A DNA stretch of 64,000 nt from positions 1 through 64,000 of the forward strand of contig UCJD01000007.1 in assembly GCA_900472605.1 (NCBI GenBank), written 5' to 3'. Below are positions 52,241-59,282 of this stretch, one piece after another. Numbering within the stretch: position 1 is the stretch's first letter; each line of letters starts with the position of its first letter. The stretch comes from Hyphomicrobiales bacterium (GTDB lineage: Bacteria > Pseudomonadota > Alphaproteobacteria > Rhizobiales > Rhizobiaceae). Made by a program: the position numbers and the translations under genes. The notes under the pieces were generated by a model that searched no databases, had not been told where the DNA came from, and worked only from the letters and a program-made list of their open reading frames with translations.

Positions 52241-52269
52241 TGATCCACACTCCCCGTAGCTTCGTAACA
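52241..52269 (+). promoter_or_regulatory. ECF11 (RpoE-ChrR type) promoter of phrB
   Basis: TGATCC (52241-52246), then exactly 18 bases, then TAACA (52265-52269). The R. sphaeroides sigma-E/ChrR consensus, as remembered, is TGATCC-N18-TAA. A start site about seven bases on would give a 25-base leader to the phrB start. The photolyase gene is a classic member of this regulon. Confidence 0.7.
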
Positions 52270-52301: not shown

Positions 52302-53747
52302 TTGTCCGACGATGCCGCAAAGCCGCTTATCCTCTGGTTTCGCAAGGATCTTCGCCTCGACGACAATCATGCGCTGCATGCGGCCTGCCGTAGCGGACGA
52401 CCGATCATTCCCCTCTACATCCGCGAGCCTTCCTCTTCCGGCACCGGGCCTCTGGGCGGCGCGCAAGAGTGGTGGCTGCACCATTCGTTGACGTCGCTCA
52501 ACGCATCGATCGAAGCGCTGGGTGGCTCGCTCCATCTTGTGAGCGGCGATGCGCTCGATGTGCTTGGAGACGTGATCAAAAAGACCGGTGCGGACACCGT
52601 GATGTGGAACCGCCGCTACGATCCGCCTGGCATAGCCATCGATACGCGCATCAAGAGGGAGCTCGAACAACAGGGCCTGGATGCGCAGAGCTTCGCCGGC
52701 CAGTTGCTGCATGAGCCGTCTCGGCTGAAGACCGGGGGTGGGACGCCTTACCGTGTCTATACGCCGTTCTGGCGGGCGCTCGAAGGTGCTGGCGAGCCGC
52801 CTCACCCTGTCGATGCGCCCAAGACAGTCCGGTTCGCGCCCGAACTCAGGGCAAGCGAGACACTGAAATCCTGGAAGCTGCTGCCAACCAAGCCGGATTG
52901 GGCCAAGGATTTCGCCGAGGTCTGGGCTGCCGGCGAAGAGGCGGCGCGTGAGCGGCTTGCCGATTTCCTCGATGAAAGCCTGAAAGGCTACAAGGCCGAC
53001 CGCGACTTTCCGGCCAAGCAGTCCACCTCGATGATGTCGCCCTATCTGGCGCTCGGCGTCATATCGCCGGCGCGCATATGGGAGGAGACGCGCGGGCTGG
53101 ACGTGCCCGCCGACGATCTCGTTCACTTCCGCAAGGAGCTCGCCTGGCGCGAATTCTCCTACCATCTGCTGTTTCACTTCCCGAAGCTGCCCTACGCCAA
53201 CTGGAACAATCGCTTCGACGGATTCGAGTGGAGCAACAGCACCGCGCATTTTCGCGCCTGGACCAAGGGGATGACCGGCTACCCCATCGTCGATGCCGGC
53301 ATGCGGCAACTCTGGAAGCATGGTTTCATGCACAATCGGGTGCGAATGATCGTTGCCTCGTTCCTGATCAAGGACCTGATGATCGACTGGCGGCGCGGTG
53401 AAGCCTGGTTCCGCGACACGCTCGTCGATGCCGATCCGGCAAGCAATGCGGCCAGCTGGCAATGGGTGGCGGGCTGCGGTGCAGATGCTGCCCCGTTCTT
53501 CCGTATCTTCAATCCCGTACTGCAGGGCGAGAAGTTCGATCGAGATGGCGCCTATGTTCGCGAATTCGTTCCGGAGCTTGCCGCGCTCGACACCAAATAC
53601 ATCCACAAGCCATTCGCAGCACCGCAGAGCGTGCTCGACAAAGCGGATATCCGGCTCGGCGAAACCTATCCCAAGCCGATCGTCGACCACGCGACCGCCC
53701 GCGACCGGGCGTTGAAAGCCTACAACGCCGTAAAGGACGCAGCATGA
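52302..53747 (+). CDS. phrB: Deoxyribodipyrimidine photolyase
   Basis: 481 residues from TTG 52302 (GGGGATC upstream); no ATG is placed as well at the N-terminus. The N-terminal antenna-binding domain shows ILWFRKDLRLDDNHALHAA. The FAD-binding part has STSMMSPYLALGVISPARIW, WREFSYHLLFHFP, GMTGYPIVDAGMRQLWKHGFMHNRVRMIVASFLIKDL and WQWVAGCGADAAPFFRIFNP. It uses blue light to split cyclobutane pyrimidine dimers. It is the first gene of a four-gene plus-strand run behind an ECF11-like promoter. Its stop overlaps the next start (ATGA). Confidence 0.95.
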   Translation: MSDDAAKPLILWFRKDLRLDDNHALHAACRSGRPIIPLYIREPSSSGTGPLGGAQEWWLHHSLTSLNASIEALGGSLHLVSGDALDVLGDVIKKTGADTVMWNRRYDPPGIAIDTRIKRELEQQGLDAQSFAGQLLHEPSRLKTGGGTPYRVYTPFWRALEGAGEPPHPVDAPKTVRFAPELRASETLKSWKLLPTKPDWAKDFAEVWAAGEEAARERLADFLDESLKGYKADRDFPAKQSTSMMSPYLALGVISPARIWEETRGLDVPADDLVHFRKELAWREFSYHLLFHFPKLPYANWNNRFDGFEWSNSTAHFRAWTKGMTGYPIVDAGMRQLWKHGFMHNRVRMIVASFLIKDLMIDWRRGEAWFRDTLVDADPASNAASWQWVAGCGADAAPFFRIFNPVLQGEKFDRDGAYVREFVPELAALDTKYIHKPFAAPQSVLDKADIRLGETYPKPIVDHATARDRALKAYNAVKDAA

Positions 53748-55081
53748 ACGCGCATTTTCATCACCCGCACAGTCGCTTGAAGATCGCCGTCATCGGCTCC
53801 GGCGTCTCCGGGGCATCGGCGGCTTGGGCGCTCAATCCGCTGCATGACGTGACGCTCTACGAAAGGGAAACACGCGCCGGCGGCCATACGGCCACTGTCG
53901 ACGTCGATTACGACGGAACGCACATTCCCGTTGATACCGGCTTTATCGTTTACAACGAGCCGAACTATCCGAACCTCACCGCGCTGTTTGCGCGGCTCGG
54001 CGTTGCCACCCATGCCAGCGACATGAGCTTTTCGCTTTCGCTCGACCAGGGGAAGCTGGAATGGAGCGGCGGCGGGCTGTCTTCGATCTTCGCGCAGAAG
54101 CGCAACCTGGTTCGCCCGTCCTTCCTGCTGATGATCCGCGAGATCCTACGCTTCAACAAGACCTGCCTGATCGACCGCGCCGCCGGCCACCTCGCCGCGC
54201 GATCGATCGGCGACTATCTCGACTGGCGGGGTTTCTCGCCCGGGTTCACCAACAATTATCTCGTGCCGATGGCCGCCGCGATCTGGTCGACGCCGGCCGC
54301 GAAGATGATGCAGTTTCCGGCCGAGCACTTCGTCAACTTCTTCGACAATCACCGCCTGATCTACTCCAAGCAACACCAGTGGCGCACGGTGACCGGCGGC
54401 AGCCGCAATTATCTCGACAAGTTGCTCGAGCCTCTGGGCGACCGGCTGAAACTCGGGCTTGGGGTGCGCGCAGTGCTGAGAACCGAAGGCGGCGTCACCA
54501 TCATCGACGACCGCGGCGAGCAGCGTCACTTCGACAAGGTTATCCTTGCCGCGCACAGCGATCAGACGCGCCGCATGCTTGCGGATGCGACCGAGCAGGA
54601 GAAGCGGCTTCTAGCCGCCGTTCCCTATCAGCCGAACAGGGTCGTGCTTCACCGCGACCCGATGCTGATGCCGCAGCGCCGGAAGGTGTGGGCATCCTGG
54701 AACTATCTGCGCTCCAGCTCGACTAACGGTAACGCCGATGTCGCCGTCACCTACTGGATGAACAAGCTGCAGGCGATCGACGATCGCTTCCCGTTGTTCG
54801 TGACGCTGAACCCAGACCGCGAACCGGACCCGCGCAAGGTATTTGCGGAGTTCAGCTACGAGCATCCGCAGTTCTCCGCCGACAGCGTTCAGGCGCAACG
54901 CGCGCTTATGGATATACAGGGCCGCAACGGCTGTTACTTCGCCGGCGCCTGGACGGGCTATGGTTTCCACGAGGATGGGCTGACGTCAGGCCTTGCGGCC
55001 GCCAAGGCGCTCGGCGCGGCGCTGCCGTGGAGCACGTTCAAGACTGATAACATCGAACCGGAGCTGGACGCCGTCGCATGA
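53744..55081 (+). CDS. FAD-dependent oxidoreductase (COG2907 type)
   Basis: 445 residues from ATG 53744, overlapping the phrB stop. The N-terminal dinucleotide fold is IAVIGSGVSGASAAWALN, then LYERETRAGGHTATVDVDYDG and VDTGFIVYNEPNYPNL. The C-terminal FAD segment is CYFAGAWTGYGFHEDGLTSGLAAAKALG. It resembles amine-oxidase/desaturase-like flavoproteins that co-occur with DUF1365 and CFA-type methyltransferases in the Rhodobacter sigma-E regulon. A desaturase role on membrane fatty acids is an inference. It overlaps the DUF1365 start by four bases. Confidence 0.9.
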   Translation: MNAHFHHPHSRLKIAVIGSGVSGASAAWALNPLHDVTLYERETRAGGHTATVDVDYDGTHIPVDTGFIVYNEPNYPNLTALFARLGVATHASDMSFSLSLDQGKLEWSGGGLSSIFAQKRNLVRPSFLLMIREILRFNKTCLIDRAAGHLAARSIGDYLDWRGFSPGFTNNYLVPMAAAIWSTPAAKMMQFPAEHFVNFFDNHRLIYSKQHQWRTVTGGSRNYLDKLLEPLGDRLKLGLGVRAVLRTEGGVTIIDDRGEQRHFDKVILAAHSDQTRRMLADATEQEKRLLAAVPYQPNRVVLHRDPMLMPQRRKVWASWNYLRSSSTNGNADVAVTYWMNKLQAIDDRFPLFVTLNPDREPDPRKVFAEFSYEHPQFSADSVQAQRALMDIQGRNGCYFAGAWTGYGFHEDGLTSGLAAAKALGAALPWSTFKTDNIEPELDAVA

Positions 55082-55920
55082 CGCAGGAACGCGCAGGACG
55101 AGGCGTGAGCATGCGCGACAACGGGCCGCCGCCCGAGGCCGCGGCAGCACTCTATGTCGGCGACGTCATGCACCAGCGCATGAAGCCCTTCGGCCACCGC
55201 TTTCGCTATCGTGTGTTCTCGATGGCGATCGATCTCGACAGGCTGGATGAGGCGGATCGTCTGTCCGCGCTGTTTTCCGTAAACCGGCGCAACGCCGTAT
55301 CGTTTTGCGAGAGCGACCATGGTGGCAAGATGGGCGCCAGGGCGCATGCCGACGAACTGCTGGCGCAGGCGGGCTTGCGTGCCCAGCGCATCGTGCTGGT
55401 CTGCTATCCCCGCATTCTCGGCTACGTTTTCAACCCGCTCTCCGTCTACCATGCCTATGACGCGAGTGATGCGCTGATCGCGATGATCTATGAGGTTCGC
55501 AACACATTCGGCGAACGCCATACCTATGTCTGCCCTCTCGGCCCCGGCGAGATGAGCGACACCGGCGTTCGGCAGAGTTGCGACAAGATCTTTCACGTCT
55601 CGCCCTTTATCCAGATGGGCATGCGCTACAATTTTCGCATGCTGCCGCCGGGCAAGGACATCCGCTGGCGTATTCTCGAAACCGATGCTGATGGCCCGCT
55701 TCTCGCGGCGACCTTCTCGGGACGACAGCTGAGCCTCACGACGAAAAACCTGGCGTGGCTGACGGCGGCCATCCCACTGTTGCCGATCCGGATCGTCGGC
55801 GGCATTCATTGGGAGGCGCTGAAATTGTGGCTGAAGGGCGCGAAATACATCTCAAAGCCAGCACCGCCCGCCCCGGTCAGCGTGATCGCGCCGCCCGAGA
55901 GAGCGGAGGCGGCGGAATGA
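55078..55920 (+). CDS. DUF1365 protein
   Basis: 280 residues from ATG 55078; a later ATG at 55111 is possible. Family features are ALYVGDVMHQRMKPFGHRFRYRVFSMAIDLDRLDE, LVCYPRILGYVFNPLSVYHAYD and KIFHVSPFIQMGMRYNFRMLPPG. The function of DUF1365 is not established. It is nearly always found between the COG2907 flavoprotein and a CFA-type methyltransferase, as here. Confidence 0.92.
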   Translation: MTQERAGRGVSMRDNGPPPEAAAALYVGDVMHQRMKPFGHRFRYRVFSMAIDLDRLDEADRLSALFSVNRRNAVSFCESDHGGKMGARAHADELLAQAGLRAQRIVLVCYPRILGYVFNPLSVYHAYDASDALIAMIYEVRNTFGERHTYVCPLGPGEMSDTGVRQSCDKIFHVSPFIQMGMRYNFRMLPPGKDIRWRILETDADGPLLAATFSGRQLSLTTKNLAWLTAAIPLLPIRIVGGIHWEALKLWLKGAKYISKPAPPAPVSVIAPPERAEAAE

Positions 55921-56084
55921 CGAAAAGCGCGCTCCGATATATGCGTCCGTTGTGCGCAACACAGGATTGGAAAATTGTTTGGCTTTTCCATTTTTTACGA
56001 TAGCGTTCAAAGCAATCGCCGGGGGGCGGAGTTTTCAACGCATCGTCGTCCTGAACCGGTCAAATCTTGCCGGAGGAGAAAACC

Positions 56085-57344
56085 ATGAGTGATGCTAGCG
56101 ACTTGACCAGTTCCGAACGCGATGCGATCCAGCTGACGCAACAGAATATCGGACAGGTTTCGAAGGGACTGCCACTGCGCGCAAAACTGGCGCTGCGGGC
56201 AATGCTTCGCATGCGACACGGCTCGCTGACGATCGTTTTTCCTGATGGCCGCGTGGTGCTGGTTACCGGCAACATCCCCGGCCCGCACGCCAAGATCCAT
56301 CTGAAGAACTGGAACATCTGTTACCGGGCGCTGTCGAACGGCACGATCGGCGTGGCCGAAACGTACATGGACGGTGACTGGGAAAGCCCCGATATCGCAG
56401 CGTTTCTCGAGCTGTTTCTCGTCAACGACGAGGCAGTCCAGGATTACGCCAACGGCAAGCGCGGCTTGCCCCGTCTCGTCGAGCGCGTCCGCCACTGGAT
56501 GAACGCTAACACCCGCAAGGGGTCGAAGCGGAACATCTCGGCGCATTACGATCTCGGCAACGACTTCTACAAGCAGTGGCTCGATCCGACGATGACCTAT
56601 TCGTCGGCGCTTTATTCCACCGGTGCCAACGATCTGCAGTCGGCGCAGAACGCCAAGTACCGGGCCCTGGCCGAGGCAACCGGGATCAAGCCGGGTGACC
56701 ACGTGCTCGAGATCGGCTGTGGATGGGGTGGCTTTGCCGAGTTTGCCGCCAGCGAGCTCAACTGCCGGGTCACGGGCCTGACCATCAGCCGCGAGCAGCT
56801 GGCCTTCGCCGAAGAGCGCATTCGCAAGGCCGGGCTCAGCGACAAGGTCGAGTTTCGCTTCCAGGACTATCGCGACGAAACCGGCGTCTACGACAAGATC
56901 GTTTCGATCGAGATGTTCGAGGCCGTCGGCGAGAAGTATTGGCCCGCCTATTTTTCCAAGCTCGAGCAGTGCCTGAAGCCTGGCGGCAAGGCCGGACTTC
57001 AGATCATAACGATTCGCCCGGAGTCGTTCGAACAGTACAGGAGCAATCCGGATTTCATCCAGAAGTACGTTTTTCCTGGCGGCATGCTACCGACCCGCGA
57101 GCATTTGGCTGAACTTGGCCGAAAAGTGAATTTGTCACTGGTACGGGACTTCGGTTTCGGGTTAGACTACGCGCGTACTCTGGCCGAATGGCGAGAGCGT
57201 TTCTGGTCCGTTTGGGAACGAGTTCGCCCACTGGGCTTCGACGAGCGCTTCAAGCGGCTCTGGGAGTTCTATTTATTTTATTGTGAAGCAGGTTTCCGCG
57301 CCCGAAACATAGACGTCCGCCAGGTCGTCTTTTCGCGGAGCTGA
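56085..57344 (+). CDS. Cyclopropane-fatty-acyl-phospholipid synthase family methyltransferase
   Basis: 419 residues from ATG 56085, with CGGAGGAGAAAACC upstream. The SAM-binding motif is HVLEIGCGWGGFAEFAA. The family motif YDLGNDFYKQWLDPTMTYSSALY lies before it, and IVSIEMFEAVGEKYW and QIITIRPESFEQYR follow. It transfers a methylene or methyl group to acyl chains of phospholipids. Given its neighbours it could be a plain CFA synthase or a UfaM-type enzyme making methylated unsaturated fatty acids. It is 165 bases after DUF1365 and may have its own promoter. Confidence 0.92.
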   Translation: MSDASDLTSSERDAIQLTQQNIGQVSKGLPLRAKLALRAMLRMRHGSLTIVFPDGRVVLVTGNIPGPHAKIHLKNWNICYRALSNGTIGVAETYMDGDWESPDIAAFLELFLVNDEAVQDYANGKRGLPRLVERVRHWMNANTRKGSKRNISAHYDLGNDFYKQWLDPTMTYSSALYSTGANDLQSAQNAKYRALAEATGIKPGDHVLEIGCGWGGFAEFAASELNCRVTGLTISREQLAFAEERIRKAGLSDKVEFRFQDYRDETGVYDKIVSIEMFEAVGEKYWPAYFSKLEQCLKPGGKAGLQIITIRPESFEQYRSNPDFIQKYVFPGGMLPTREHLAELGRKVNLSLVRDFGFGLDYARTLAEWRERFWSVWERVRPLGFDERFKRLWEFYLFYCEAGFRARNIDVRQVVFSRS

Positions 57345-57473: not shown

Positions 57474-58307
57474 CTATTCGGCCGGGCTTGGGGTCACCGG
57501 GCGGCGACCGTCGGCGCGCGGGCGCTCCTGCCAGCCGGTGGCGCGGTTCACCAGCCAGAAATACAGGCTGTAGGGCAGAAGGTTGAGCGCCTTCAGCGTG
57601 TAGGTGAAGCGCTTCGGGAAGGTGATCTCGAAGCTTTTGGATTTAAGGCCGGCATAGATTTCGGCGGCGGCCTCCTCGACCGGAACCAGCGACGGCATCG
57701 GGAATTCGTTCTTGCGGGTCGCGGGCGTATCGACGAAGCCCGGATTGATGAGCTGGATGCGGATGCCCATCTTGTCGAGATCGAATTTCAGGCTCTCGGC
57801 CATATTGATCAGGGCTGCCTTCGTAGCGCCGTAGGCAGCACCGGTCGGCAATCCGCCGTATCCTGTCACCGAGGAAACGATGGCGATCTGCCCCTGCCCT
57901 TTGTGCTTCATGTGGCGCACCGCCGGCACCAGGCAATTGACCACACCCTGCAGATTGACGGCAAAGCTCTGCTCGAAATCCTCGCGACGCAACTCCTCCG
58001 CATGAACCGGCAGATAGACGCCAGCATTGAAGACAGCGAGCGCCAGCGCACCGTGCTCGTATTCGATCGATGCGAGCACATGCTCCATGTCTTCGGGATT
58101 GGTGACGTCGCCATCGAGAACGATGATGCTGCCGGGCAAACCATTCGCTTCCGATTGCAGTTCGGCAAGCTTTTCGTGGTCGCGGGCAGTCACGGCGACC
58201 TTGTAGCCTTCGCTTGCCAGCTTCAGCGCCAATGCCCGGCCGATGCCGGAGCTTGCGCCTGAAATCCAGGCAATTCCATGTTCGGGGCGGGCTACAAAAT
58301 CGTTCAT
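57474..58307 (-). CDS. Short-chain dehydrogenase/reductase
   Basis: 277 residues from ATG 58307, preceded by CCGGAGGATTCGCGCC; the longer frame to 58391 is not needed. The cofactor site is GIAWISGASSGIGRALALKLA, then VLDGDV and VFNAGVY. The catalytic triad is Ser in IAVVSSVTGYGG and Tyr/Lys in YGATKAAL (YxxxK). The substrate is unknown. It is 100 bases downstream of the ChrR-like gene and is probably co-transcribed with it. An SDR also sits in the Rhodobacter sigma-E gene cluster. Confidence 0.93.
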   Translation of the reverse strand: MNDFVARPEHGIAWISGASSGIGRALALKLASEGYKVAVTARDHEKLAELQSEANGLPGSIIVLDGDVTNPEDMEHVLASIEYEHGALALAVFNAGVYLPVHAEELRREDFEQSFAVNLQGVVNCLVPAVRHMKHKGQGQIAIVSSVTGYGGLPTGAAYGATKAALINMAESLKFDLDKMGIRIQLINPGFVDTPATRKNEFPMPSLVPVEEAAAEIYAGLKSKSFEITFPKRFTYTLKALNLLPYSLYFWLVNRATGWQERPRADGRRPVTPSPAE

Positions 58308-58407
58308 GGCGCGAATCCTCCGGTTGTATCGAAAAACGTCGAAACGGGCCCGGAAGTTCCTCTCAACCTCACGGGATAATGGCTCTATCACGCTATTGTG
58401 GCTGCTT

Positions 58408-59052
58408 TCAGCCGATCAGGTCGCCAATGAGCTGGCGGAAAGAACCGGTCAGCTTGATGGGGGCGTCCAGAACGGAAAATGCAATGCAGGGACGATCTTT
58501 TTCGGCGACCGGGCGGTGGTCGATCGTCTCGTCGGCAACGGAAATATCGCCGGGGCCGAAACGGCCGCGGTTGTCGTTGAATGCGCCGTCGAGAATGAGC
58601 GTCAGTTCCATGCCCTTGTGGGTATGAGCAGGCATGGCGCGGCCGGGCTTGATCCACATGACGCTGACTTCGCAGCCATCGATATCGACCGAATATTCCT
58701 TGAAGCCGGGGAGCTTGGTTTTCCACGGCACCGTATCGACGTCGAAGCCGACAAGACGGCGCAACGCGCGCGGGAAGACGCTTGGTTTTTCAGAAGCGAT
58801 CGGCGGCTTAGATTCTACGGGCGCCGCGGATGCAAAAATCCGCGCCAATCTGGCATCGCGGTCGTCAAGACTTGTTTCGGAAGTCTGCTCCAGCGCCTGG
58901 CCAGCCAAAAACTCGAGGTCCCGCACCAGCGGCCGACGATCCGGCTTCATTTCCAGATGCGATTGGACAAGAACACGAGCCGGTTCGGGAAGCGAACCGG
59001 CTACGTAATACGCCATCAATGCATCGACCGTGTCGATATGCTCGTGAACCAT
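58408..59052 (-). CDS. ChrR-like cupin protein with degenerate anti-sigma zinc site
   Basis: 214 residues from ATG 59052, matching the ChrR start; ATG 59094 and 59115 are longer options without support. The N-terminal anti-sigma-like helices show TVDALMAYYVAGSLPEPARVLVQSHLEM, but the H-x3-C-x2-C zinc motif reads H-LEM-K-PD-R, so both cysteines are lost. The C-terminal cupin keeps its metal ligands (MPAHTHKGMELTLIL and DHRP). In Rhodobacter ChrR inhibits RpoE until singlet oxygen acts. No sigma-factor gene is adjacent here. It could be a diverged regulator or sensor. Confidence 0.85.
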   Translation of the reverse strand: MVHEHIDTVDALMAYYVAGSLPEPARVLVQSHLEMKPDRRPLVRDLEFLAGQALEQTSETSLDDRDARLARIFASAAPVESKPPIASEKPSVFPRALRRLVGFDVDTVPWKTKLPGFKEYSVDIDGCEVSVMWIKPGRAMPAHTHKGMELTLILDGAFNDNRGRFGPGDISVADETIDHRPVAEKDRPCIAFSVLDAPIKLTGSFRQLIGDLIG

Positions 59053-59282
59053 GATGGTTTCGGTCGTTTCCGCTTTCAGTGAGTGCTTTGTCATCGTCCA
59101 TACGATGAATGTCAATGTTCAGATCACAACCGGGCCTGTATCGGGGCATCGCAGGTCATTTGCGAACGGGAAGTCTAATTTTACCGTGGTATTCGGGCGC
59201 GAGGAATAGGATTTCTTGCCAACCCAGCCTTGTGAAGGGAAAAGACCGTTCCTAAACTAAGTGTTTCAAAGAGGCAGATTCC

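Follow-up and report, generated by a model that had tools for sequence, protein, structure and literature searches.

The chrR-like gene at positions 58408-59052 (minus strand) of the window, the 64,000-nucleotide stretch of DNA analysed here, probably encodes a working ChrR-family anti-sigma factor that holds its sigma factor without zinc, and its partner would be an unlinked RpoE-like sigma gene, L011 (G000:C12:3786-4355). On the sequence comparisons described below, we place the probability of this reading at roughly 0.8. There is strong comparative evidence that the gene itself is real, conserved and functional. We infer physical binding of ChrR to the sigma factor, a zinc-free anti-sigma domain, the nature of the stimulus and the activity of the promoters. 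Two readings had been offered in an earlier note on this DNA, namely that such a protein binds its sigma factor differently or that it has become a stand-alone sensor; co-occurrence, fold prediction and conservation favour the former and weigh against the latter. ChrR probably still works without zinc, since in its relatives chrR shares the fate of its distant partner, the two being retained, lost or broken jointly, and we see in the arrangement a variation on ChrR control, not a system of a new kind.

A ChrR-family protein with a substituted zinc motif

The open reading frame extends from an ATG at 59052 to a stop codon ending at 58408, is full-length and encodes 214 amino acids; this start is preferred because the alternative TTG at 59115 overlaps a promoter-like site. 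The protein scores 145.1 bits against the TIGR02451 anti_sig_ChrR profile (cut-off 124.5; residues 10-210) and 130.3 bits against the NCBIfam equivalog NF051881 StressantisigmaChrR, below the 300-bit threshold of that model. Residues 6-202 align to the R. sphaeroides ChrR from the sigma complex (PDB 2z2s_B, E 1.4e-32). An anti-sigma domain covers residues 8-75 (58828-59031, minus strand), with helices predicted by AlphaFold2 at 9-17, 23-35, 37-56 and 65-74, and is followed by a cupin-like domain at residues 93-203 (58444-58776, minus strand; PF12973, 40.4 bits). The cupin ligands H143, H145, E149 and H179 show no variation across the 59 aligned rows, so that the claim that the cupin zinc ligands remain holds; they correspond to H141/H143/E147/H177 of the R. 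sphaeroides protein as numbered in PMC6852236, and C189 is likewise invariant.

The loss of the zinc cysteines, which the earlier note had pointed out, is borne out by the alignments. The former H-x3-C-x2-C motif now reads H32-LEM-K36-PD-R39 (58936-58959, minus strand), so that both cysteine positions are substituted (K36 and R39) and the protein lacks a ZAS motif. I6 and D7 stand in the columns where linked ChrRs have their N-terminal His, and H3 and H5 sit near the old N-terminal His position. A chrR orthologue is present in 60 of 90 same-genus genomes, our own included, with 60-100% identity among the matches listed, and the cysteines are absent from our gene, from the 29 other loci of the genus that came up alongside it and from three further genus genomes. 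Among 80 named orthologous loci (mostly Rhizobium, also Stappia, Pannonibacter, Roseibium and others) none has a cysteine at either motif position, one of them (L183) being without the N-terminal part. Because these loci were found through patterns in the cupin half, cysteine state was not selected for, and linked ChrRs are under-represented among them because the search alignment was built from unlinked ChrRs. The two cysteine columns of unlinked rows hold K, S, N, Q, R or T and R, H, N, S, A, V or Q, respectively. A sequencing error at these codons, raised in the earlier note as grounds for setting the observation aside, is excluded, since other genomes share the same or similar substitutions. 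In L183 (8001-8462), the Rhizobium aethiopicum orthologue, the match begins at residue 61 and no promoter-like site was found; this gene may carry a frameshift or be in early decay.

In a set of 66 rows, which includes 5 genus rows and 20 class-level rows from 19 of 78 matching genomes and favours unlinked-like rows because the class-level rows come mostly from top scores, 38 linked ChrRs have the cysteines and 4 lack them, and 23 unlinked ChrRs lack them and 1 has them. As a strict rule, the equation of cysteine loss with unlinking is therefore ruled out by the exceptions on both sides (4/42 linked ChrRs without and 1/24 unlinked with cysteines).

The unlinked sigma gene and its occurrence with chrR

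As claimed, no sigma gene adjoins chrR. The sigma-70 region 2 profile found no match on the 214-kb contig that carries chrR, and the canonical ECF11 operon layout was not seen there. The genome-wide inventory of ECF and ChrR genes that had been suggested as a check gave 14 sigma-70 region 2 genes, all on other contigs, one full ChrR by TIGR02451 (the window gene) and one RpoE-like, ECF11-type sigma gene, L011; a second TIGR02451 match is to the cupin part alone (profile positions 121-201, in a 139-aa open frame). L011 has as its best PDB match the RpoE of the RpoE-ChrR complex (2q1z_A, E 7.6e-42; the next match has E 2.1e-17) and is 39-47% identical to eight ChrR-linked sigma factors, and for each of these L011 is the best match among those ECF genes of our genome that were tested. 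Inspection by eye of the 10 kb surrounding L011 showed no anti-sigma gene among the ORFs of 100 aa or more; the gene that follows on the same strand seems to encode a relative of elongation factors. The profile searches and the surroundings of L011 thus leave the genome with one ChrR that has no sigma neighbour and one ECF11-type sigma factor that has no visible anti-sigma neighbour. The term "orphan" used for this ChrR is apt as to position; as to partnership it does not fit, the likely partner being unlinked rather than missing.

The same separation is seen in relatives. No L011-type sigma gene was found within the 80 named chrR loci of 5.1-16.7 kb, and where the two genes share a contig they are far apart (e.g., at 2.47 and 0.58 Mb in G001). 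Among the matches listed for the 90 same-genus genomes, both unlinked genes occur in 60, and the remaining 30 contain neither of them as a full gene; these 30 were searched again for the sigma gene, considering the best E-value per genome. Eight of the 30 hold only a linked sigma-chrR pair. In G032 and G033 both genes are reduced to remnants, chrR in its usual place and the sigma gene to residues 27-59 and 153-188 of 189 (69-73% identity) in G032 and to residues 24-69 (72% identity) in G033. One of the 60 genomes, G027, has a sigma gene split by a frame break with chrR intact, and also contains a linked pair. A canonical linked pair whose ChrR has the cysteines occurs in some Rhizobium genomes as well (L057-L061, L069); in G051 and G008 it lies beside the amine-oxidase-DUF1365-CFA set.

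Shared ancestry inflates co-occurrence, and changes were therefore counted on a tree. This tree, of the single gene cysK, was built for 63 of the 90 genomes, of which 33 carry the pair and 30 do not. It requires five changes to account for the presence pattern, four of which well-supported branches make unavoidable, and it places G032 and G033 apart from each other. These data show that the match between chrR and the sigma gene reflects more than one inherited event. Among the matches listed beyond the genus, an unlinked ECF11-like sigma gene accompanies the unlinked cysteine-less chrR of 13 order-level genomes, and also that of G373, G269, G167 and G337.

The main competitor of this pairing is that ChrR no longer binds a sigma factor and acts as a stand-alone cupin sensor or enzyme inside an ECF11 sigma regulon. 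The protein has lost both zinc cysteines and the N-terminal His, the cupin ligands are invariant and chrR is unlinked from the sigma gene, all of which would suit such a protein, and a mere member of the regulon could vanish together with its sigma factor. According to PMC6852236, inhibition by the R. sphaeroides protein requires zinc in the anti-sigma domain, and its response to singlet oxygen requires the cupin domain, so that zinc loss could equally mean lost inhibition. The neighbouring DUF1365 gene, a candidate for mere regulon membership, follows the sigma gene and chrR less tightly, being present in 41 of 60 genomes with the pair and 7 of 30 without it. It was not found in 19 of the 60 genomes that keep the pair (G001, G009, G023, G026 and 15 others), and this part of the regulon therefore seems dispensable to the pair. 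A stand-alone ChrR would also leave the sigma factor without a ChrR-type anti-sigma factor, given that the genome holds no other full ChrR and none was seen by eye beside the sigma gene.

Structure and selection bear on the same question. The AlphaFold2 model of the window ChrR, built with 59 sequences, has a mean pLDDT of 84.4 and contains four predicted N-terminal helices and a cupin, and the N-terminal domain is thus predicted to keep the four-helix anti-sigma fold. The top six Foldseek matches of the model are ChrR chains of 2q1z and 2z2s, and VIA-align superposes model residues 8-196 on ChrR 2q1z_B with Z 20.5 and rmsd 4.0 over 178 residues. The anti-sigma domain is under purifying selection and is nearly as constrained as the cupin, unlike the linker: dN/dS is 0.07-0.20 for the anti-sigma domain (six of seven pairs computable), 0.14-1.02 for the linker (six of seven pairs) and 0-0.18 for the cupin (seven pairs), ratios that are rough because many synonymous distances lie near or above 1, close to saturation. 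Constraint of this kind on a domain predicted to keep its fold argues against the stand-alone protein, which we consider unlikely.

It is more improbable still that ChrR inhibits the sigma factor with a domain zinc held by other ligands, for example H3, H5 and H32 together with an acidic residue. H32 does not vary in the 59 aligned rows, but it is missing from 5 of 24 unlinked ChrRs of the wider set; H3 and H5 lie close to the position of the old N-terminal His, a residue missing from most order-level rows; and the cysteine columns are varied in unlinked rows, which offer no other conserved candidate ligand. In the preferred reading, ChrR would hold the sigma factor without zinc; most simply, packing would take over from zinc in the anti-sigma domain and sensing would be left to the cupin.

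Promoter-like sites, neighbouring genes and the proposed circuit

The pattern TGATC-N15..18-CGTA was sought within 260 bases upstream of genes, a narrower window at which G110 falls out. An ECF11-type promoter-like site of the form TGATC-N17-CGTA lies at 52241-52266 (plus strand) before the photolyase operon, and we take it to be the promoter of the same regulon type that had been noted about 6 kb from chrR. A second copy directly precedes chrR itself (59126-59101, minus strand) and may serve chrR and the SDR gene, so that the link to the regulon is closer than had been stated. With a spacer of 16 or 17 bases, the site stands upstream of 43 of 46 unlinked chrR genes. It also precedes 22 of the 28 linked sigma-chrR operons, in which it lies before the sigma gene, and it was found within 260 bases of none of 43 unlinked sigma genes. 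A class-level sample gave sites before 5 of 6 unlinked chrR genes and 8 of 14 linked sigma genes; before the sigma gene, none was found in the 5 unlinked cases of this sample or in the 3 linked ones of its cysteine-less operons. These counts suggest that the anti-sigma gene retained the operon's site and that the sigma gene now lacks it. In the linked cysteine-less operons L255 (G257), L260 (G271) and L247 (G177), the 260 bases before the sigma gene contain no TGATC-N-CGTA site. By eye, most of the unlinked sigma genes of the genus (L072-L101) are preceded by a conserved stretch, TTTAAGACAYAAAG ... TTTGACSTTT, which may be a constitutive promoter.

The site before chrR recurs in 78 of the 80 named orthologous loci. 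A decaying relic can be dismissed on this ground together with a full-length gene in 60 of 90 same-genus genomes (among the matches listed) and purifying selection on the whole gene (dN/dS 0.06-0.20 in seven pairs), even though family-defining residues are lost and true decay is seen in G032 and G033.

Across the genome, the N17 form has 14 matches and the reversed pattern 3, a modest excess. Ten of the 14 fall inside some ORF of at least 100 aa, including the one before a DUF3833 gene (which falls in a 122-aa antisense ORF), and our claim is limited to three sites, those before phr, chrR and the DUF3833 gene. The third copy (G000:C66:160067-160092; L237) lies about 40 bases before the DUF3833 gene and about 100 kb from chrR. 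Two genes, called rpoH-like on account of their size, were considered as further members under the same site and rejected, their upstream TGATC sites having, by eye, no CGTA at N16 or N17.

The operon behind the first site consists of the DNA photolyase gene phr (52302-53747; PF03441, PF00875), a flavin amine-oxidase-like gene (53744-55081; PF01593), a DUF1365 gene (55078-55920; PF07103) and a cyclopropane-fatty-acid-synthase-like gene (56067-57344; PF02353), all on the plus strand. Downstream of chrR is a gene for an SDR-family oxidoreductase (57474-58391, minus strand), a frequent neighbour, and the order SseA-AlaX-CysK-ChrR-SDR-CFA-DUF1365-AmOx-Phr is largely conserved among orthologous loci. 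The amine-oxidase, DUF1365 and CFA proteins presumably make furan fatty acids, an assumption that we carry over from R. sphaeroides work. A review counts the furan-fatty-acid genes as core members of the regulon.

In the circuit that we propose, the zinc-less four-helix domain would sequester the sigma factor in unstressed cells. Photo-oxidative or peroxide stress would be sensed through the metal-binding cupin domain and would inactivate ChrR, and the freed sigma factor would transcribe the photolyase/amine-oxidase/DUF1365/CFA-synthase operon as well as the unlinked DUF3833 gene and chrR-SDR. Newly made ChrR would then close the feedback loop. Because the site precedes only the anti-sigma gene and not the sigma gene, self-amplification would give way to negative feedback.

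Comparison with known systems and history of the linked and unlinked forms

The window system resembles RpoE-ChrR of R. sphaeroides (ECF11; PDB 2q1z and 2z2s) in the predicted two-domain fold, the cupin ligands and the sigma family, and apparently also in its target genes (photolyase and fatty-acid genes, in part after PMC6852236). It differs from that system in that the window ChrR has no HHCC zinc site, is unlinked from its sigma factor and has the promoter-like site before the anti-sigma gene instead of the sigma gene. ChrR is described in PMC6852236 as a founding member of the zinc anti-sigma factors, and the precise role of its zinc finger is there called unknown; PMC6432622 argues that the finger may take part in direct singlet-oxygen sensing. 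Natural fingerless ChrRs beside the same kind of target genes would offer a direct test of that role. Should such proteins keep a response to singlet oxygen, sensing would not require the finger, and the cupin domain may be enough for it.

The zinc-less class I domains of RseA and RskA (PMC7406223) resemble that of the window ChrR in not relying on a zinc motif, but these two are not known to belong to the cupin proteins of the ChrR family. PMC7406223 counts about 44% of class I anti-sigma domains as non-zinc-binding and shows zinc-less domains to be common in other groups. RsiW of Bacillus subtilis is reported there to bind its sigma factor independently of zinc, as we infer for the window ChrR; unlike the latter it keeps the zinc motif, and its binding arrangement is different. 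The set surveyed in PMC7406223 was drawn from ECF gene neighbourhoods, and unlinked anti-sigma factors such as the window ChrR would thus have been missed. Joint loss and joint decay can assign an anti-sigma factor to an unlinked sigma factor where neighbourhood-based surveys are blind. A literature search by titles and abstract openings returned no description of a cysteine-less or unlinked ChrR, for which a prior mention in print is possible.

The suggested phylogeny of ChrR proteins with and without the cysteines gave mostly separate groups, with linked cysteine-less and unlinked cysteine-bearing proteins as exceptions. In the order-level ChrR tree (51 rows), one branch splits 23 unlinked from 28 linked proteins (SH-aLRT 99), and the sigma tree is congruent with it, one branch splitting 21 unlinked from 28 linked proteins (SH-aLRT 98). 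With 20 class-level rows added to the ChrR tree, support for the unlinked cysteine-less group drops to 75/60, and for this reason its single origin is likely rather than proven. Two linked cysteine-less proteins fall inside a wider cysteine-less group (85/69), and the existence of linked forms of this kind suggests that zinc loss may precede loss of linkage. The linked cysteine-less ChrRs L215 (G108) and L247 (G177) group with cysteine-bearing proteins, outside the clade of the window protein, as if they had lost their cysteines independently, and the ChrR of G241 is unlinked yet keeps them. We give about even odds to the view that an old alphaproteobacterial ChrR clade dropped a redox-reactive zinc finger, left its sigma gene and took the feedback promoter, which would have produced a split circuit of a constitutive sigma factor and a sigma-induced, zinc-independent anti-sigma factor sensing by the cupin alone.

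The genome G271 has one ECF11-type sigma match and two cysteine-less ChrRs (L241 and L260), one linked and one unlinked, and the unlinked one has its own ECF11-type promoter-like site. Residues specific to the unlinked groups were compared in 16 of the 43 unlinked sigma factors and 18 of the 46 unlinked ChrRs. On the sigma side, R84 is present in 16/16 unlinked and 1/28 linked proteins, and L82 and R89 in 16/16 and 15/16 unlinked proteins, respectively; among the unlinked ChrRs, L28 is present in 18/18 and F73 in 11/18.
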